This document shows, one piece after another, positions 151 to 26,931 of a stretch of DNA of 26,931 nucleotides. Below the pieces are notes generated by a model. It was not told the origin of the DNA. It saw only the letters and a program-made list of their open reading frames with translations, and searched no databases. This DNA is from a virus: positions 1 to 26,931 of IMG/VR virus record IMGVR_UViG_3300009164_000301; one strand, 5' to 3'. Each line of letters starts with the position of its first letter. The stretch's first letter is position 1. Made by a program: the position numbers and the translations under genes.

Positions 151-393
151 GTGACTACTAAAGTTGTGAAGAAGCAGACCGAAATTGATATTGATATTGA
201 CAAGTTCACTGTGATGGATTTGGAAATCATTGATAAAGCAAGCCGTGGCGAAGCTACGTTAACAGACGAAATCAACGTGTTCGACAAGGTTGTTATTGGC
301 GGTGTTCGAGGAATGAAGGCAAGCGACATTCGCAAGATTCGTAATGCAGTTCTTGAAGCCCTCGTAAAGGACGCTAACGACCCAAACTCATAA
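151..393 (+). CDS. Tail assembly chaperone, short form (gpG-like)
   Basis: This 80-aa acidic protein starts at GTG 151, 5 nt after AGGAGG (140-145). An ATG at 149 reads straight into TGA and cannot be used. It lies immediately before the tape-measure gene, where siphoviruses encode the lambda gpG/gpGT pair of chaperones that hold the tape measure during tail assembly. A slippery heptamer CCCAAAC at 381-387 sits one codon before the TAA stop, so part of translation should continue in the -1 frame. The function rests on position, size and the frameshift signal rather than on a recognised sequence motif. Confidence 0.8.
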   Translation: MTTKVVKKQTEIDIDIDKFTVMDLEIIDKASRGEATLTDEINVFDKVVIGGVRGMKASDIRKIRNAVLEALVKDANDPNS

Positions 394-569
394 AGCGGTT
401 GTACGCATTCCTCTACACCAATGCACAACAACCGCCTGAATACCGAACTTATTGGTGGTGCATGAAGTTACAGTGTCGCCCCGACCAATTACCACCTGCA
501 CGAACACTTTTGCTATGGGAGAAAATTATGAGTGTAGAAGCAAAAGTCCGTGCGAAGAAACAAGGATAG
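151..569 (+). CDS. Tail assembly chaperone, -1 frameshift form (gpGT-like), joined 151..387 and 387..566
   Basis: Zero-frame reading to AAC at 385-387, then a -1 slip on C CCA AAC, gives a fusion of 79 + 60 = 139 aa ending at TAG 567-569. The -1 frame has a stop at 375-377, just before the heptamer, and is open from there to 566, so it can only be entered at or after this point. Its product has Trp, Tyr and Pro-rich segments (YRTYWWCMKL, RPDQLPPART) and a basic end, looks like real protein, and has no start or ribosome site of its own at the front. The tape-measure ribosome site AGGAGG begins at the stop codon. The double product is the known arrangement of gpG/gpGT. Confidence 0.82.
381..435 (+). 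promoter_or_regulatory. Programmed -1 ribosomal frameshift signal
   Basis: The heptamer C CCA AAC (381-387) fits X XXY YYZ in the reading frame. After a 7-nt spacer, GCGGTTGT (395-402) pairs perfectly with ACAACCGC (428-435). An inner helix GCATT (405-409) with AATGC (420-424) extends it across a small internal loop. The order and spacing are those of known -1 frameshift sites. Confidence 0.85.
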
Positions 570-578
570 GAGGTATCA

Positions 579-3014
579 ATGGCAGATGATATTGTAATAC
601 GTTTTATGTCTACAGACAATGTGACCCCGACCGCCCAAAAGGTATCGGGGTCTATTGGTAATGTAGCAAAATCTACCGACAAAGCCGACTCATCAATGGC
701 ATCGTTTGGTTCTACAATGGGCAAGATTGGTGCGGCAGTTGGCATTGCCACACTTGGCAAACAGATTATTGATTTGGGCGTAAACTCCGCTCTTGTTTAT
801 GACAAGTTTGAGAATGTACGTAAATCACTTGGACTTATGACGGGGTCAACACAGGCTGGGAACGAGTTGTATGGCGTAATGCAAGACCTTGCAGCTCGCA
901 CTCCATTTACTTTTGATGATATTGCACAAGGAACGCAAAAACTCCTTGCCATGGGCTTCACCGCTAAAGAAATCCCTGCCACAATGACTGCCATTGGAGA
1001 TGCGTCTTCAGCAGTTGGTGGTGGGGCAGAAGGCGTGAATCGCATAACCCTAGCCCTTGGCCAGATGCAAGCAAAAGGGAAAATTACTACTGAAGAAATG
1101 ATGCAACTTCAGGAAATGGGTGTACCTGCATTTCGCATCCTTGCCGATGCAACGGGTGTATCTCAACAAGCATTGATGGATATGGTATCAAAGGGGCTTA
1201 TTCCTGCCGATCAAAACTTGCAAACACTCATTACAGGTATGGAAAAAAACTACGGCGGCATGATGTCCCAACAAATGAATACCGCTACACAAGCTCAGTC
1301 AAACTTTCAAGATGCTACCGACCGTGCCACACAAGCATTGGGCGAGATTTCCGCACCATCCGTCAAGATTGCATTCAATTGGTTGACCATGGCATTGGAC
1401 GGCGCAACAACGGGTATGAAAGACTTTGGTAATTGGCTTAATTGGGCCGATCAATCACTTATTACGTGGCAAATGCACTTGCGTGGGGCTACTGAAGCAG
1501 AAATAGCAGGTACATTAGCAACTCGTGACTCGTCAAATGTTACGAAAGAACATGCACAGGACACTTATGCATTGCAACGAGTATATGGCACTATGACAGG
1601 TGCTACTCAGCAAGCAACTTCAACACTTAATATCAATACGAATGCTATGAAGTCCGCATCTGGTGGCTCAAACAAGTTAGCGCAAGATGAAAAATCGCTT
1701 AAATCGGCGGTTGATAGCTTGCGTACCTCTTTCTTGAATATTGCCTCGGCGCAACGTGATGTAAAGCGAACTCGTGAGGCATTGGAAGATGCGACGAACC
1801 CCGAAACACTGCAAACGTATGAGATTGCATCAGACCGTGCGTTCTATTCCAACGAGTTGTTAACCAACGAAATCACTCGCATGAATGCACGACAAAAGCA
1901 GATTCGTGAAACGCTTGAACGAGGAAATATCACTCAACAAGAACGCAATGAATTGCAGATAGAAGATGCACAAATTACCGAAGAATTGATTGGCAAAAAT
2001 CTTGATGCCAAAGATTCAATAATTAATTTGCACAAGGCGCAAAAAGACCTCGACCGTGCTCGTGACCCTGCACGAATTCAAGCATATACTGATGCTCATA
2101 CAAACGCGATTTTGCGGTTGAATGAGTTGAATGCAAAGCAACTAGAGAATATCAAGACCGTAGGCGATTTAAGCATTGCATTAAAGGTAAATACTGATGT
2201 TACTGCGTTGCTTGGCCAAGCTGCCGCCCTAACTGCAACACCACTTGACGGAATTGATAATATAGGCAAGGACATTATCACTACATATACAGGAAAAGGT
2301 GGTGTTAATACAGCATTAAACGGAATGTCTAAGAGTCTTTCCGATGTTGGAGCAAACAGCGGTTCAGCTATTGAGGGTATTGGTAATGTTAATACTGCTC
2401 TTGGTCAACTTTCTGTTGATCCTTTAAAATCCGCTGGAATAATAGCAATGTCAAGTGCATTATCAGGACTTTCAGTAGCAGGTAATGCATTAAAATCAAT
2501 TGATTTTAAGGGTATTCTGAGTGGAGTTGTTGGGGCAGTTGCGGGACTTACCATGCAAATGGTTGCACCTTGGACACAACTGAACGGGCAACTTAATGAC
2601 ACACTTGCAATATTAAAGAAATTACAAGATCAAAGTAATAGCGGTGGAACACCTACGCCTGAACAAGTTGTTCGTAGTAAAATCACAGGGGCATTTTCTG
2701 ACAAGTTCTTATCAAATAGTGAGTACAACGACATTCAAGCAATCGCAGCCTCAAAGGGAGTGAAATATGGAGATGTAGATAAATACATTAAAGAGTTCTT
2801 AGCTTCAGCTGGTAGTGCGTATACTACATTCAATCAACCCGTATTTGGTCAAATGTTGCCAATCACAGGCGATGTTGGCGGTGGGAAAGACTCAATGTTT
2901 AGCGGCAAGAGTGTCACGATTATTCTCAACTATGCTACACCTCCTGATAGTAGCAATCCTATGAAGGATGTTGAGGATTACATCACTGCACAAGGAGGGC
3001 TTATTCGGATATGA
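579..3014 (+). CDS. Tape measure protein
   Basis: This 811-aa protein sets tail length and is threaded through the tail tube during assembly. It starts at ATG 579, 7 nt after AGGAGG (568-573). Residues about 50-260 form the tape-measure domain seen in TP901-1-type phages, with Gly/Ala-rich helices such as TPFTFDDIAQGTQKLLAMG and KGKITTEEMMQLQEMGVPA. Residues about 370-520 are highly charged and probably coiled coil, with two loosely repeated blocks of the form DVKRTREA...LQTYEIASDRA and DLDRARDPARIQAYTDAHTNA. A hydrophobic stretch at about 645-665 (GVVGAVAGLTMQMV) may insert in the host membrane. It is preceded by the frameshifted chaperone and overlaps Dit by ATGA. At about 1.5 angstrom per residue the tail would be about 120 nm, an estimate from the family rule. 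Confidence 0.92.
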   Translation: MADDIVIRFMSTDNVTPTAQKVSGSIGNVAKSTDKADSSMASFGSTMGKIGAAVGIATLGKQIIDLGVNSALVYDKFENVRKSLGLMTGSTQAGNELYGVMQDLAARTPFTFDDIAQGTQKLLAMGFTAKEIPATMTAIGDASSAVGGGAEGVNRITLALGQMQAKGKITTEEMMQLQEMGVPAFRILADATGVSQQALMDMVSKGLIPADQNLQTLITGMEKNYGGMMSQQMNTATQAQSNFQDATDRATQALGEISAPSVKIAFNWLTMALDGATTGMKDFGNWLNWADQSLITWQMHLRGATEAEIAGTLATRDSSNVTKEHAQDTYALQRVYGTMTGATQQATSTLNINTNAMKSASGGSNKLAQDEKSLKSAVDSLRTSFLNIASAQRDVKRTREALEDATNPETLQTYEIASDRAFYSNELLTNEITRMNARQKQIRETLERGNITQQERNELQIEDAQITEELIGKNLDAKDSIINLHKAQKDLDRARDPARIQAYTDAHTNAILRLNELNAKQLENIKTVGDLSIALKVNTDVTALLGQAAALTATPLDGIDNIGKDIITTYTGKGGVNTALNGMSKSLSDVGANSGSAIEGIGNVNTALGQLSVDPLKSAGIIAMSSALSGLSVAGNALKSIDFKGILSGVVGAVAGLTMQMVAPWTQLNGQLNDTLAILKKLQDQSNSGGTPTPEQVVRSKITGAFSDKFLSNSEYNDIQAIAASKGVKYGDVDKYIKEFLASAGSAYTTFNQPVFGQMLPITGDVGGGKDSMFSGKSVTIILNYATPPDSSNPMKDVEDYITAQGGLIRI

Positions 3015-6548: not shown

Positions 6549-7250
6549 CTATTCTCCCACCTCGCCTACTAAAGCCTCCCACAACACGCCGTAGTGGCTG
6601 TAACAAATCGCATTGACCGCACTTGCATACTTCTGCATTAGACCCTGTGCATCTTTAGCGGTGCGGAGTAATACAAAGTGGTGAAGTGCTTGAGGCGACG
6701 CCGTCCAATAGAACTCTGTATACAGACCCATTGGCAGGATTGCACGAGCTTCTTCATTGGCCACCCCCGAATCAATCATCTTGTTGTAGAACCGCATAAG
6801 TTGCTCTTTTAGCATTGCCCACTCAAGGACGTACTCTGTATTATGCTTATGCACTTCCTCACTTGCCCCTTGCTTCTTGTTAGCAGCTTGACTATGCAAC
6901 TCAGTCGGAACGTAAATATCGGAGTAGCGAATGTAACGACCTGATACCTCGTTCCACCCTGTGTCCTTAAACGTGTAATCGCTTCCTACGATATGCTTGT
7001 ACCACTGACGGGCAATCATTTCAGGGCAACGAACGTGCAAGGTAATTGGCGAGTGGCGGAACGGGCTAGTATGGTTTTCCTTGCTGAGCCACCGCAAAAG
7101 CTTCTCATCACTTGCGTCAAACTTGTCCTTCTTCTTTGCAAACGATCCACGAGCAACATTAGTCGCTTTTAGGTGCGGTGGTTTGTGCATGTAATCATCC
7201 AACGTGACGTGTCCTGCGTCAATATCAATCTTAGTAATTGATTTACTCAT
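6549..7250 (-). CDS. thyX: Flavin-dependent thymidylate synthase ThyX
   Basis: Makes dTMP from dUMP using methylene-tetrahydrofolate, FAD and NADPH. The 233-aa protein has SPFRH at 62-66, RQWYKHIVGS at 81-90, NEVSGRY at 100-106 and EARAILP at 167-173, in the family's order. In the usual RHRxxSxNExSxRY motif the arginines are altered here (KHI) and about nine residues (DYTFKDTGW) are inserted before NEVSGRY, a variant form. ATG 7250 follows a GGAG site and lies 2 bases after dcd, so they form one unit. Together with dcd it converts dCTP via dUMP to dTMP for phage DNA synthesis. It is the last gene of the early operon. Confidence 0.93.
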   Translation of the reverse strand: MSKSITKIDIDAGHVTLDDYMHKPPHLKATNVARGSFAKKKDKFDASDEKLLRWLSKENHTSPFRHSPITLHVRCPEMIARQWYKHIVGSDYTFKDTGWNEVSGRYIRYSDIYVPTELHSQAANKKQGASEEVHKHNTEYVLEWAMLKEQLMRFYNKMIDSGVANEEARAILPMGLYTEFYWTASPQALHHFVLLRTAKDAQGLMQKYASAVNAICYSHYGVLWEALVGEVGE

Positions 7251-7252
7251 TG

Positions 7253-7831
7253 TTATTCTCCAATAGTTCGTACTTTAGCGGTTACAGGTTCATATGCTTG
7301 TGATTGATACTTGCCCTTGCGGTCTGCATACGTGACTGCGGCAGGTTCGCCCTTGAAGAACACCGCCTGACAAATACCCTCAAACGTGTATAGTCGAATA
7401 GGCGTATCAAGGGTATTAAACAGCTCAATTGTCAGATACCCCTCCCACCCTGCCTCCATTGGAGTGCAATTAACCATCAATCCGCACCGTGCATACGTTG
7501 ATTTACCAATAACCAAGGCTGATACGTCACGTGGCAGCTTGAAATGTTCTACACTATGCCCAAGTGCATATGAAAACGGAGGTAAATCGTAATAATCCGT
7601 TACCTCAATCTCATCAAACACTATTGCTTCAGCCTGCTTGGGATCAATGACTCCAAACTGCCCACGACCATTGTGGAAAATCTTGAACTTCTTACCAAGG
7701 CGCATGTCATATCCGAACGACGATAATCCATACGAAATAACCCCATTCCCCACTTGTTTGTAAACAAATGGGGAAATCATTTTGCTATTGCTCGCTAAAT
7801 CGCGAATCTGTACATCATTTAGTATTGACAC
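7253..7831 (-). CDS. dcd: dCTP deaminase
   Basis: Converts dCTP to dUTP, and in bifunctional relatives onward to dUMP. I chose GTG 7831 because AGGAGG lies 9 nt ahead; an in-frame TTG at 7861 would start before that site. The resulting 192-aa protein carries the Dcd/dUTPase signatures: SFGYDMRLG near 38-46, GKSTYARCGL at 109-118, and AGWEGYLTIELFN at 127-139, whose second Glu (about 136) matches the catalytic Glu. Near the end EGICQAVFF fits the trimer strand. Its start overlaps the end of the preceding small gene. No separate dUTPase is seen in the genome, so it may perform both steps. Confidence 0.9.
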   Translation of the reverse strand: MSILNDVQIRDLASNSKMISPFVYKQVGNGVISYGLSSFGYDMRLGKKFKIFHNGRGQFGVIDPKQAEAIVFDEIEVTDYYDLPPFSYALGHSVEHFKLPRDVSALVIGKSTYARCGLMVNCTPMEAGWEGYLTIELFNTLDTPIRLYTFEGICQAVFFKGEPAAVTYADRKGKYQSQAYEPVTAKVRTIGE

Positions 7832-8063
7832 TGTCAAATTCCTCCTGTAATTGTTCTGCAAGACCCTTCATATCGTCGATAATGTATTGTAACTTGTCTT
7901 GCTTTGTTTCGCACTTGTAAAAGTTGCCCAATAATACTGTATCATACTCGCCGTCTTCTCCATATCGAACAACCTCGTACTGATTATCCTTGGCATATGC
8001 CTGATACTCGTACTTGCCATAAACGACCAACTTCTTGAATAACTTTTCCCATGTTTTAATCAT
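7815..8063 (-). CDS. Small protein of unknown function (82 aa)
   Basis: I start this at ATG 8063 because AGGAGG stands 9 nt upstream; the open frame extends further up to 8168 but that part lies over the nuclease gene. The product (MIKTWEKLFKKL at the front) has short beta-type segments with many Tyr, Asp and Glu, such as YEVVRYGEDGEYDTVLLGNFY, then a helical tail. It is acidic and has no motif I recognise. It overlaps the nuclease gene by 8 bases and dcd by 17 bases in the early operon. Its role is unknown. Confidence 0.75.
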   Translation of the reverse strand: MIKTWEKLFKKLVVYGKYEYQAYAKDNQYEVVRYGEDGEYDTVLLGNFYKCETKQDKLQYIIDDMKGLAEQLQEEFDSVNTK

Positions 8064-8845: not shown

Positions 8846-11788
8846 CTACTTCTTAAGTAACCAAAGGTGATTGGCATATTCAACAATGCCCTTGTCCATT
8901 AACCCGAAAAGGTCGTCCATGATTCGTTCCGTCTTACCGCTATACCCAACCAAATCTGCTATATCACTTGAATACATGCCCTGAGGGTTTACTTGTATAA
9001 GTGCCAACATCTTTCCTTGTAGCGAGCTAGCGTCAATTATGGTGCTAGGATTGATGGAGAGCGACGATTGTACCACTTCAGGTGCAATCACCTTAGCTGG
9101 CTGTTTTAGTGGCTTAAAACCGCTTGTAGGAGGTGTGGGTTCGGTGTCGTTATTATCTGATTCCATTTTGTCCACTTCCTTTTGCATAACGGCTTCCTTG
9201 ACTGCGACAACCTTTGTCCAATGATTACTTGTTACGAGTGCGTTGATTTTGCTGGTATGTGACCAAACGGTATTCTTTAACACGGTCTGATTATACTCAG
9301 TTTCCAACTCCAACAACTTAATTGACTTTATTTGCAATCGTAAGTAATACGTATCACCACTTTTGCCCCGAATAAAACCCTTCTCTTTGATAAGGCGACT
9401 AAGTTTGTTTGAGTTAAAGTTACTAGCACCCTTTTCGTTATTGTTTGCACAATACAAATTCCATAATGCAAACAAGAAGTCCTTTTGGATATAGTACCCG
9501 TTTTCGCCCTCACCTGATTTGCCATTAGTTAGGTCAACATCAAGGTATTCAGATATAAACAGGGCTACATTATCCTGCGACTTACGAAGCGTCAGTGTTG
9601 ATAATTCAACATCTTGACAATAGGGTAACTTCATTCCGTTAGCCTGAACCTTCAGAAATCCTTCAATTGCCCAATTCAACAACCCAGATAACTCACCCGC
9701 AAAGTTGTCTTTGAATTGCTGTGTTTCAATCTTCTCAGGACTATTCTTAAGGTCTTGATTAAACTCAATAACTTTAAGTCGGCCCAAAAATGCTTCATCC
9801 ATTGACTTGATATTTGGCAGTGAGTTGCCGTCAAAGAATATCTTGGCAACTGGATTGAATTCAATCGCTTCCTTGTGAAGCGTTCGTCCGCCTTGGCGGT
9901 CGCCTGATGATAGTTCTTTCAATGTAGAACCGTTAAATTGAGCATCTTCCTTGAATTCATTGGAAAATGATACTCGCTTGTATCGTAACCGCTGAATTGC
10001 TGGTTGTAAATCGCTTACGTCGTTCCGTTGAGCGGTTAAGGTTGCTGTCGGAGTCGAAACATAATATTCATCTCCAAGCAAGGCGAAAAGCACCAACTCC
10101 TTGAATATTGACTTACCATTACCACCACTACCAACTAGATAAAATATTTCTCGTTGTGAAGTTATATATGCTGAAAGCGATAATCCTACTACACATTGCA
10201 TATATTCTTGTTTTGCTGGTTGCCCTTTAAACGTTGTAGCCAAATATCGGTCAAGGTGTGGATGTTTGGCATTTGGGTCAAACGTCAAGTCACGTTTAAG
10301 GGTCAAGCGGTACTTCTTGTCGTGGGGCAAAAGGGTCTTTGTTGGCAAGTGTACAATGCCATTCAACACGGGAAATAAATCAGGGTGCTTGTTGAATTCA
10401 TCTGGACTCATGCTCTTACATTCACTCTTAATCATGCCAACAACATTATGCGAGAAGTTGGCATCGTGAAGTTTAAGTATCAACTTCAATACCTTCTCAT
10501 CGCCTGAATATTTGTATTGCAGTGCATCGCCGAGGTTAGAAACGAGTGAAGTCAATACAATTGGGTGTTCACCTTTTCGAGCTTGATATTCATACCAATG
10601 ATTGTCTGTCCACACGTACCAAATGTTTGCCTTTTCAAAGTAGTAAACGTTTTCGTCGTATACACGATTAAATAATCGAGCGACACCCGTGTGTGTCATT
10701 TGAGTAGCAAAATCAAAGTCGCCAATCTTTTCCACTAGTTCCATAATAATTGGACTAGCAGGTTCTTGATCAACTTCCACTTCTTCGGTAACTTCAGGTG
10801 CGGTAACATATTCAACTTCTTTTCGTGGGGTTGGACGCGATTTTGTAGTAGTCAATGGCTTTTCCTTTTCCTTCATTTGTGGGAGGTCGATTGGTGATTT
10901 AAGTCCGCACTCAAATCCCCACTCAATGGTTCGGTATTCCTTTACGGCGTTTGCACGAATTGGTACATTTGCATCGTATAAGCGATCAATAATTGTTTGC
11001 TCGCTCATACTACTGTATCCATGGCTTACACAGGACTGATAATAGCCACCAACCGCACGGGCTTCCGCACGACGAGTGTCGTGACGATTGCCATCTACTG
11101 CATTGCTAATCTTGTTTACTGCTGAAGCAACCTTATTCTCCATAAACCGTTCTAACCATGTTGGGTGATATTCAGTTGTGATTAGGGCAACATCACGATT
11201 TACTGCCTGAACCATCGAACGGGCTTTGTCGGTATTGCGGTATTTTTCGATAACGTCTGCTAATTCTGAGTGGGCTTCATGGATTTTGTCTGGTGTACCG
11301 CTTACGTGGTTGCCCGTGACCGTAAAGTACCGCTTGCCGTCGTACACTTCCATCATTAAGCCGTTATTCAACTTGACCTTTGAGGTCGTGAAGTCTTTTG
11401 GCTTGCTACCGTAAATCAGCACGTGAATTCCGTTGCCACTTGGTGAAAACTCAGTGTAGGAGTCAAGGTGGGTAACGATTTTCATTACTTCAGGGTCAAT
11501 TACATTGTTGACAACACAGTTATCAAAGTCAATACCCATGATGCCTGTATCAGTGGTAAAGGCAAATCCTAAGCCACGAAGGTTGCGCTTTTCACGCCAC
11601 ACTACACAATCATCATAAGAAGCCCAGAGGTCGGGGTTGGTTGGGTCTGTGGTTTGTGTGCAACCGTATGGAAAAGGTTGCTTGTTCATCTTGCCTGCGC
11701 TGTCAACTGTGTTGTTGCCCCAACAAATCCATTGATTGTACTCCTTGAGTTGTTCGATTGCGTAACTTTCGGTAACTATTTTAGTCAT
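8846..11788 (-). CDS. Primase-polymerase / SF3 (D5-type) replicative helicase
   Basis: This 980-aa protein is the central replication enzyme. I start it at ATG 11788, 8 nt after AGGAG; a TTG at 11794 is nearer to the site and less likely. Residues 1-180 are a primase-polymerase domain: IDFD at 86-89 (metal-binding Asp pair), SGNGIH at 117-122 and EVYDGKRYFTVTG near 147-159. Residues 300-345 are a charged, Pro-rich linker. The helicase core has Walker A GSGGNGKS at 553-560, Walker B-like KRVSFSNEF at 604-612, and the sensor segment FFDGNSLPNI at 651-660. The last about 60 residues look like a winged helix. It likely recognises the repeats at 15169-15474, by analogy with plasmid and phage relatives. 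No phage polymerase is present to pair with it. Confidence 0.92.
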   Translation of the reverse strand: MTKIVTESYAIEQLKEYNQWICWGNNTVDSAGKMNKQPFPYGCTQTTDPTNPDLWASYDDCVVWREKRNLRGLGFAFTTDTGIMGIDFDNCVVNNVIDPEVMKIVTHLDSYTEFSPSGNGIHVLIYGSKPKDFTTSKVKLNNGLMMEVYDGKRYFTVTGNHVSGTPDKIHEAHSELADVIEKYRNTDKARSMVQAVNRDVALITTEYHPTWLERFMENKVASAVNKISNAVDGNRHDTRRAEARAVGGYYQSCVSHGYSSMSEQTIIDRLYDANVPIRANAVKEYRTIEWGFECGLKSPIDLPQMKEKEKPLTTTKSRPTPRKEVEYVTAPEVTEEVEVDQEPASPIIMELVEKIGDFDFATQMTHTGVARLFNRVYDENVYYFEKANIWYVWTDNHWYEYQARKGEHPIVLTSLVSNLGDALQYKYSGDEKVLKLILKLHDANFSHNVVGMIKSECKSMSPDEFNKHPDLFPVLNGIVHLPTKTLLPHDKKYRLTLKRDLTFDPNAKHPHLDRYLATTFKGQPAKQEYMQCVVGLSLSAYITSQREIFYLVGSGGNGKSIFKELVLFALLGDEYYVSTPTATLTAQRNDVSDLQPAIQRLRYKRVSFSNEFKEDAQFNGSTLKELSSGDRQGGRTLHKEAIEFNPVAKIFFDGNSLPNIKSMDEAFLGRLKVIEFNQDLKNSPEKIETQQFKDNFAGELSGLLNWAIEGFLKVQANGMKLPYCQDVELSTLTLRKSQDNVALFISEYLDVDLTNGKSGEGENGYYIQKDFLFALWNLYCANNNEKGASNFNSNKLSRLIKEKGFIRGKSGDTYYLRLQIKSIKLLELETEYNQTVLKNTVWSHTSKINALVTSNHWTKVVAVKEAVMQKEVDKMESDNNDTEPTPPTSGFKPLKQPAKVIAPEVVQSSLSINPSTIIDASSLQGKMLALIQVNPQGMYSSDIADLVGYSGKTERIMDDLFGLMDKGIVEYANHLWLLKK

Positions 11789-11804
11789 TTTCAAATCTCC
11801 TTTT

Positions 11805-16677: not shown

Positions 16678-16871
16678 TGAACGAGAATGTTTTAGTTAAG
16701 CCTTGGTACGAGTCCAAGACCGTTTGGGTCAACATCGTTTCGCTTGTCGTGGTCGTGATTGGTACGATGGCAGGATGGCAAGAGATGAAAGACTACGCAC
16801 CCACCCTTATCGCCGCAGTCAATGTATTGAATCTCTTGTTGCGCTTAGTAACATACGAAGCGATTAAATAA
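16677..16871 (+). CDS. Putative holin
   Basis: This 64-aa protein starts at ATG 16677 with CAGGAGG 6-7 nt upstream. It has KPWYESKTVWVN before a membrane segment (IVSLVVVVIGTMAGW) and a second weaker hydrophobic part near APTLIAAVNVLNLLLRLVT, the plan of many small phage holins. Endolysin release by membrane holes is the presumed job. It ends in TAATG with the phosphoesterase gene. Confidence 0.75.
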   Translation: MNENVLVKPWYESKTVWVNIVSLVVVVIGTMAGWQEMKDYAPTLIAAVNVLNLLLRLVTYEAIK

Positions 16872-17869
16872 TGCCACCACAAAACGCTGGGAAGAAGTGG
16901 AGGTTCATGATCAGAGAAAACGGTAGCAGGCGTTGGGTAAGCTTCTCCCATTACGAAGCCTGCTACCAAGCATGGATTGCCTACCGCAATATGAAAAGAG
17001 ATGAACCTACAGAACCCGTTGAGGTTCAGTTCATTGAAGAAGTAAACGACGTTCAATCACTATGGGACATGGCAAAGGCGCAACAACCAACAGAACGACG
17101 GGACGTACCTGCTATCACAATGGCCAATGCCCCGTTCGCTATTGCCTTCTTGAGTGACTTGCATATTGGTTCAACTGCTACAGACTACAGGTCAATACAA
17201 GAAGACGCAGAAACAGTCCGTGACACTGATGGAATGTATGCAGTCTTTCACGGCGACGGTATAGACAATTGGATTATCGGTAAGCTGCAAGCGCAACAAC
17301 GAAATCAGGCTATGCCATTTGACTCTGAACTTGCATTGTTCAAAGCTTGGATGAGTACGTTAGAGTCAAAGTTGATTACGGTGGTTGCAGGCAATCACGA
17401 CAATTGGACGAAAAAGATGGCAGGCGTTGATTGGTTAAAATCCATCACACCGCCAACCGCTATTTACAATAACAATGAAGCCCTGTTTGAATTGTATTGG
17501 TCGGGCAACAAAACTACAATCTGTGTTCGACATAAGTGGCGTGGCACGTCTATTCTAAATCCTACGCACGGCATTGAACGAGCGAGTAGGGATATTGATG
17601 CAGACATTTATGTAGGAGGACACACACACATTGGCACACTTTTCCGCTCTTTTACCGTTCGCAATAAAGATAGACTTGCGGTTCTTACAGGCACTTACAA
17701 GATCCATGACGATTATGGAAGTGAACTTGGGCTACCTCGTTCCCAACACCGTGGTTGTGGTGCAGTGGTATTCGATGTAGATGGGTCCTCTACGTGGATT
17801 CGCAACCTACAAGAAGCTGCAAGATACCTCAAGTTCAAACAGGCGGAACACCGTCAAACGGAGGAATAA
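16871..17869 (+). CDS. Calcineurin-like metallophosphoesterase
   Basis: A 332-aa protein with all metal-binding motifs of the family: SDLHIG at 95-100, FHGDGIDN at 126-133, VAGNHDNW at 172-179, and GGHTH at 249-253. About 90 residues precede the domain and contain several Trp and Tyr plus a charged helix. The start ATG 16871 overlaps the holin stop and has no ribosome site, so it depends on coupling. Substrates of phage members include DNA ends, RNA and nucleotides; none is indicated here. Lying between the lysis and terminase genes, a part in packaging or end processing is possible, but this is inference. Confidence 0.9.
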   Translation: MPPQNAGKKWRFMIRENGSRRWVSFSHYEACYQAWIAYRNMKRDEPTEPVEVQFIEEVNDVQSLWDMAKAQQPTERRDVPAITMANAPFAIAFLSDLHIGSTATDYRSIQEDAETVRDTDGMYAVFHGDGIDNWIIGKLQAQQRNQAMPFDSELALFKAWMSTLESKLITVVAGNHDNWTKKMAGVDWLKSITPPTAIYNNNEALFELYWSGNKTTICVRHKWRGTSILNPTHGIERASRDIDADIYVGGHTHIGTLFRSFTVRNKDRLAVLTGTYKIHDDYGSELGLPRSQHRGCGAVVFDVDGSSTWIRNLQEAARYLKFKQAEHRQTEE

Positions 17870-25950: not shown

Positions 25951-26394
25951 ATGGCTCAAACTTCTACGGCTACTACTACATCTGCTTCAGTTGTTGAAGT
26001 AAAGATTGGTTCAGGTTCATATGCCTCAATCGCAGGTTCAACCAACTCAATTGACAGCGTTACTATCGAACGAGTATCAGGTGGCAAGGGTACACTTGAC
26101 GGTGGCGAACAACTAATCTTGGCAGGTCGTCAAGTGGCAACCACTGTTACAGTTAATTGTTTATACACCGAAACTACTTCTGAGGCATTGAAACTTACAC
26201 TTGCAAGCATTAAAGCTGGTAATGTTTGCCAAGTGTTGTGGAAACCAGTTGGTTCAAGCGGTAAATCGTTTAATACTTCAGCAAATGGATACATCACTAA
26301 AGTTTCGCTTCCTGTATCTGATGCAGAAAAAGGTGAACCGTTAATGTTCTCATTTGACGTGTTGTGTGGTGGTATCGAAACTTCATACGTCTAA
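25951..26394 (+). CDS. Major tail protein, first paralogue
   Basis: A 147-aa protein with AGGAGG ahead of ATG 25951. It is beta-rich with VNCLYTETTSEALKLTL and a C...LW segment (VCQVLW), followed by LPVSDAEKGEPLMFSFDV, a common tail-tube ending pattern. The next gene is clearly its relative (shared NCLYTET, IKA, C and W, then LP...G-P-M-F). It probably forms the tail tube, alone or mixed with its partner. Confidence 0.78.
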   Translation: MAQTSTATTTSASVVEVKIGSGSYASIAGSTNSIDSVTIERVSGGKGTLDGGEQLILAGRQVATTVTVNCLYTETTSEALKLTLASIKAGNVCQVLWKPVGSSGKSFNTSANGYITKVSLPVSDAEKGEPLMFSFDVLCGGIETSYV

Positions 26395-26414: not shown

Positions 26415-26888
26415 ATGGCTCAGACTACAGGTAGTATTACGGGCGCACTTGGCAAGCTTGAAATCTCATTTGATGACGGTGCGACATTTGTGGATATTTC
26501 AGGATCAACGTCAAGTCTTGACGCAATTGAATACGCTCGTGCAAACGGAACGAAGGCAACCTTCCTAGGCGACTTTTCTATCGTCACGATTGGTAAGCAA
26601 ATCCCCACAATGATTACGATCAATTGTTTGTACACGGAAACTGCTGGCGAGGCGACTGCATTAGCGGTGGCAAACATCAAGGCAAACACTCCTTGTGATT
26701 TACGGTGGCAATATGCAGACATAACGGCAGTTGTTGGGGCAAAGTACTTGCAGTACATTACTCTTGGCAAAAGCCGTATTGTGAAAGCATCTTTGCCTGA
26801 AATTAATGCGGAATCAGGCGACCCTGCAATGTTAGCTTTCACTGTTAGCGCACCTGGGATTGACTACAGCGAAATCACCGTAGCGTAA
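26415..26888 (+). CDS. Major tail protein, second paralogue
   Basis: A 157-aa protein with AGGAGG ahead of ATG 26415. It matches the preceding one in its core (ITINCLYTETAGEATALAV, NIKANTPCDLRW) and in its end (ASLPEINAESGDPAMLAFTV), but differs at the N-terminus and in a loop before LGKSRI. The pair look like a tandem duplication. The gene's last 80 bases recur at 1-80 because the genome is circular. Late element L1 follows its stop. Confidence 0.8.
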   Translation: MAQTTGSITGALGKLEISFDDGATFVDISGSTSSLDAIEYARANGTKATFLGDFSIVTIGKQIPTMITINCLYTETAGEATALAVANIKANTPCDLRWQYADITAVVGAKYLQYITLGKSRIVKASLPEINAESGDPAMLAFTVSAPGIDYSEITVA

Positions 26889-26931
26889 AATCTTTGACAT
26901 GGATGGTATAATAAGTGGGTGGGAATATTTC
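26809..26931. repeat. Terminal direct repeat, right copy
   Basis: Identical to 1-123. It spans the end of the second tail-tube gene and element L1 (TTGACA 26894-26899, TATAAT 26907-26912). In the circular map it should be counted once. Confidence 0.92.

Follow-up and report, generated by a model that had tools for sequence, protein, structure and literature searches.

A conserved G/GT-type frameshift signal predicted in the tail assembly chaperone gene of an uncultured phage lineage

Just upstream of its tape measure gene, the phage genome analysed here (the whole stretch of 26,931 nucleotides, referred to below as the window) carries a small gene with a slippery heptamer near its 3′ end, a stem-loop beyond its stop codon, and a second open frame displaced by −1. 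The features are as follows.

151–393, plus strand: 0-frame gene, 80 aa, predicted G-type tail assembly chaperone, conserved in relatives
375–377, plus strand: TAA closing the −1 frame 5′ of the heptamer, one codon ahead of CCCAAAC
381–387, plus strand: slippery heptamer C_CCA_AAC (P-site CCA to CCC, A-site AAC to AAA), invariant in relatives
388–394, plus strand: 7-nt spacer, including the 0-frame stop TAA at 391–393
395–435, plus strand: predicted stimulatory stem-loop; 8-bp stem 395–402/428–435, upper 5-bp helix 405–409/420–424
384–569, plus strand: −1-frame segment (T-like), 61 aa plus TAG, assigned from its reading frame, selection and relatives
151–569, plus strand: predicted GT-type fusion, 139 aa, with the junction ...NDPN-LIKRLY...
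579–3014, plus strand: tape measure protein, 811 aa (Pfam TMP_3, E 1.9e-30; PHROG tape measure families)
26415–26888, plus strand: probable major tail (tube) protein, assigned from position and from paralogy to the neighbouring gene 25951–26394

Positions 1–123 and 26809–26931 are an identical 123 bp, so the window is a closed circular or terminally redundant phage genome with a unique length of 26,808 bases. It comes from an uncultured environmental lineage and has recognisable head and tail genes, namely terminase, a portal with a Mu F domain, capsid, a gp6-like connector and the tape measure. On the circle, the tube-like gene 26415–26888 lies directly 5′ of the chaperone gene, and its 3′ end is repeated in the 123-nt overlap. 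The chaperone gene is therefore placed between a putative major tail protein and the tape measure; as 26415–26888 has no Pfam match, the name ‘tube protein’ derives from position and paralogy only.

Several other features of the genome may be recorded here. The genes 25951–26394 and 26415–26888 are neighbouring paralogues (36% identity over 154 columns), both lacking a Pfam match, and this pair occupies the place where one tube gene is expected; both may be tube proteins, or one may be a tube protein and the other a variant. At 107–131, in the interval that separates the tube-like gene from the chaperone gene, is an 11-bp hairpin. Hairpins of other sequence are found in the same place in relatives L005, L006 and L009, and none is clear in L003; the hairpin could regulate or separate transcripts. 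Adjacent genes for a ThyX thymidylate synthase and a dCTP deaminase-like protein are found at 6549–7861 on the minus strand, a D5-type primase/helicase protein at 8846–11794, and a calcineurin-like phosphoesterase gene at 16871–17869, with amidase and terminase genes on either side. Rfam and tRNA searches of the window gave zero matches.

The 0-frame gene begins with GTG and has a strong ribosome binding site, AGGAGG, upstream. It ends ..GAC CCA AAC TCA TAA, which places C_CCA_AAC in the register for tandem −1 slippage, with a single sense codon (TCA) between CCCAAAC and the stop at 391–393. To judge how often such a site arises by chance, in-register XXXYYYZ heptamers (Y = A/T, Z not G) were counted in the window genome. 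Their frequency is 0.0017 per codon, and therefore about 0.017 would be expected per gene within its final 10 codons, a figure that applies before a stem, a 62-codon opening or conservation is required. Alone, this figure is suggestive only, and it is the comparison with relatives that decides. The 13 other in-register sites in the genome are all inside genes and are followed by −1 openings of 2–20 codons, except one: an in-register AAAAAAC at 1244–1250, inside the tape measure gene, has a 62-codon −1 opening. As a candidate second frameshift site it was rejected; it is absent from relatives and thus probably due to chance.

After the TAA at 375–377, the −1 frame is open for 62 codons to the TAG at 567–569. 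Downstream of the heptamer, the 8-bp stem is perfect and starts after a 7-nt spacer. The 53-nt stretch containing it folds with a z-score of −4.3, and none of 200 shuffled sequences folds as well. A preliminary description had put CCCAAAC in the right frame one codon before the stop of the 80-aa gene, with a −1 stop just before it and an open frame after it, followed by the spacer, the stem and an inner 5-bp helix; position, register, coordinates and fold all agree with this account.

Close relatives were found by two routes. A query with the tape measure protein identified ten loci on viral contigs (57–91% identity); in all ten, CCCAAAC precedes the start of the tape measure gene by about 200 nt. 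For an unbiased search of viral contigs, only a 38-residue stretch of the −1-frame protein was used, with the heptamer excluded. This gave 18 loci, 17 of which span the site, the 18th ending at a contig edge; all 17 have CCCAAAC in register together with the stem. The arrangement is thus kept in relatives that were found without reference to the heptamer. A search with the 80-aa protein alone returned no relatives. The 0-frame protein is conserved in the relatives at 48–71% identity. Together with the window, the relatives comprise ten distinct sequences, and in nine of these the 0-frame stop (TAA, TAG or TGA) directly abuts the heptamer; in the window it lies 3 nt further on. The preliminary description had proposed comparing related phages, and had named loss of the heptamer alongside a non-conserved −1 frame as the outcome that would tell against a frameshift. 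The opposite is seen: heptamer, register, spacer and stem are all kept in the relatives that span the site.

The RNA structure is conserved as well, although its stimulatory role is putative. The relatives’ 53-nt stretches have z-scores of −3.2 to −6.0, each folding far better than its shuffles. In the outer stem, all 80 cells of the alignment (10 distinct sequences, window included) can pair. One pair has changed on both sides (U-A to C-G, compensatory) and one other has become a wobble, so that covariation in the stem amounts to one event; the upper helix varies among relatives and is not conserved. Downstream stimulatory RNA structures are common, not universal, in G/GT-type frameshifts.

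By comparison of the sequences, the −1 frame is under strong purifying selection: pS is mostly 0.5–0.95 versus a pN of 0.01–0.24. Selection is quoted as pS and pN, many omega values of 0.00 having been set aside as products of saturated synonymous distance. Across 45 pairs, the Arg CGG and Pro CCG codons of the stem arms never differ synonymously; four- and six-fold codons outside the stem do so in 38–84% of pairs. Taken together, the pS and pN values and the frozen synonymous sites point to protein selection in the −1 frame plus extra RNA-level selection at the stem. The −1 segment is modelled by AlphaFold as three helices (pLDDT 86). For the 0-frame protein, fold searches with a structural model gave weak matches, the best in BFVD being an unnamed phage protein of similar size (E 0.034); matches to the PDB were also weak (Z at most 3.3), and PDB sequence searches gave nothing useful.

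A second, much more diverse family of uncultured phages was first met in a heptamer-based pattern search of viral contigs. That broad search returned mostly chance matches and, since its query used the heptamer, it is left out of the evidence for heptamer conservation. In this family the 0-frame ends in ...PLxDPN, and the −1 frame continues with PKLSKRVYF...P.EYWRW...FGWTL..VDALS...QV.DG.AKA. With hhalign, the profile of the distant family aligns to that of the window family both before and after the junction (probability 96.6%, E 6e-10), and in several distant members the downstream gene encodes a tape measure protein. To avoid the bias of a pattern that included the heptamer, a new search for the family used its −1 segment only; it gave 21 loci. 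CCCAAAC is in register in 17 of them and another in-register slippery heptamer is present in the other 4, so some in-register heptamer is found at 21/21 loci. Three of these four (two distinct sequences) read CCCAAAAAAC, with an in-register AAAAAAC; in the remaining one CCCTTTA stands in register, and the KR codons follow 24 nt later. That one slippery heptamer has taken the place of another argues strongly that the property retained is slipperiness itself. Folds 3′ of the site are often no better than shuffles in this family.

These observations bear on three other ways in which the two frames might be related. The −1 segment could be a separate gene, expressed without any frameshift, either from an internal start or through translational coupling to the 0-frame stop. 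That stop does lie where the −1 segment begins, and −1 codon 28 is an invariant ATG. However, the 5′-most part of the −1 frame contains no conserved ATG or GTG, and its sole TTG is missing in one clade, so that this coding frame, open from the heptamer, has no start of its own there; initiation at codon 28 would lose the conserved KR-Y-QP-EYR part. A separate gene would explain neither why the heptamer is invariant and in register, nor why synonymous sites in the stem are frozen, nor why heptamers are swapped, and we regard it as very improbable. Less credible still is the view that both halves truly belong to one frame, split through decay of the gene or through an indel introduced in sequencing or assembly. 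The halves do form one homologous protein in the relatives, but ten distinct sequences, drawn from many metagenomes and using three different 0-frame stop codons, are all split identically at this heptamer, which refutes this reading. Transcriptional rather than ribosomal slippage could find some footing in the run of six A in the three distant loci (two distinct sequences), yet such sites normally require long homopolymer runs, the window site has only three C and three A, and slippage of this kind needs neither a conserved stem nor a reading register, which leaves it with next to no likelihood.

Programmed −1 ribosomal frameshifting of the G/GT type is a familiar arrangement in phage tail gene clusters. 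The slippery site of lambda is GGGAAAG. Lambda and the window phage are alike in having a small gene before the tape measure, a −1 heptamer near its 3′ end and a T-like −1 extension; they differ in that the window has CCCAAAC in place of GGGAAAG, other and shorter proteins, and a conserved stem that starts 7 nt beyond the heptamer. No sequence similarity of the window proteins to lambda gpG/gpGT was found. The likeness to gpG/gpGT drawn in the preliminary description holds for gene order, with the tape measure directly downstream. In lambda, the tape measure protein is covered by gpG and, as the less abundant species, a gpGT fusion, whose T part brings in the tube protein (Xu, Hendrix and Duda 2004; Levin 1993; as reviewed in PMC5009743).

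A further comparison is provided by Arthrobacter phage DrManhattan (NC_048093), which has the same gene order and an annotated two-piece frameshift chaperone; its likely site is G_GGA_AAC, with TAA directly after. Its tape measure is homologous to that of the window by tblastn, whereas the chaperones have no obvious similarity and the first triplet of the heptamer differs. Among named families, Pfam PF10109 Phage_TAC_7 (tail assembly chaperone proteins, E, or 41 or 14) is matched weakly by 3/9 members of the distant family (best E 2.5e-5). The window’s 80-aa protein, −1 segment and fusion have no match to PF10109 above the gathering score, and the window protein matches no named chaperone profile in Pfam or PHROGs.

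The locus very probably uses −1 programmed ribosomal frameshifting of the G/GT type to encode a tail assembly chaperone together with a C-terminally extended form of it. From the anatomy, its conservation and the analogy with lambda we infer the frameshift itself, its rate, both products and their binding partners. Most ribosomes would terminate at the TAA at 391–393 and release the G-like protein of 80 aa. A few, held up by the stem-loop 7 nt 3′ of the heptamer, would slip as tRNA-Pro (CCA to CCC) and tRNA-Asn (AAC to AAA) re-pair one base back on C_CCA_AAC, and would go on to the TAG at 567–569, which would yield the GT-like fusion of 139 aa. If lambda is a guide, the G part may coat the adjoining tape measure protein and the −1 part may recruit the tail tube protein. 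That slow termination at the heptamer-adjacent 0-frame stop sets the shift rate, in a stop-coupled frameshift tuning the chaperone ratio, seems unlikely.

Some indication of the rate comes from E. coli, where 61 of 64 heptamer motifs tested with an IS3 stimulator were frameshift-prone, the best being C_CCA_AAG at 54%, and where the top class of V_VVA_AAN heptamers ends in A or G, not C (PMC4066793). C_CCA_AAC is outside this most efficient class, V_VVA_AAR, and the rate in the host may therefore be low; a low to moderate rate is expected.

Neither the window fusion nor one distant-family fusion has a similar protein in 50,697 phage records, and an alignment search of about 85,000 bacterial and archaeal genomes gave no match. 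Five pattern matches in bacterial genomes were set aside as chance, since long coding frames to either side, or a related protein, are missing from them. With no relative in these phage records or genomes, the chaperone family looks uncharacterised in the collections searched. The fusion is apparently unannotated and sequence-divergent, of a kind that ordinary gene calling misses.

The mechanism itself is textbook, its signal type having been familiar since lambda, and its understanding is unchanged by the case described here. What the locus would add is a divergent family of uncultured phages to the known tail-chaperone frameshifts, where Pfam and PHROGs give the window phage’s chaperone no name. 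Its junction motif, DPN|L-x-KR, lets annotators recover the missed half of the gene. Related phages appear to keep the frameshift while the heptamer changes, from CCCAAAC to AAAAAAC or CCCTTTA.
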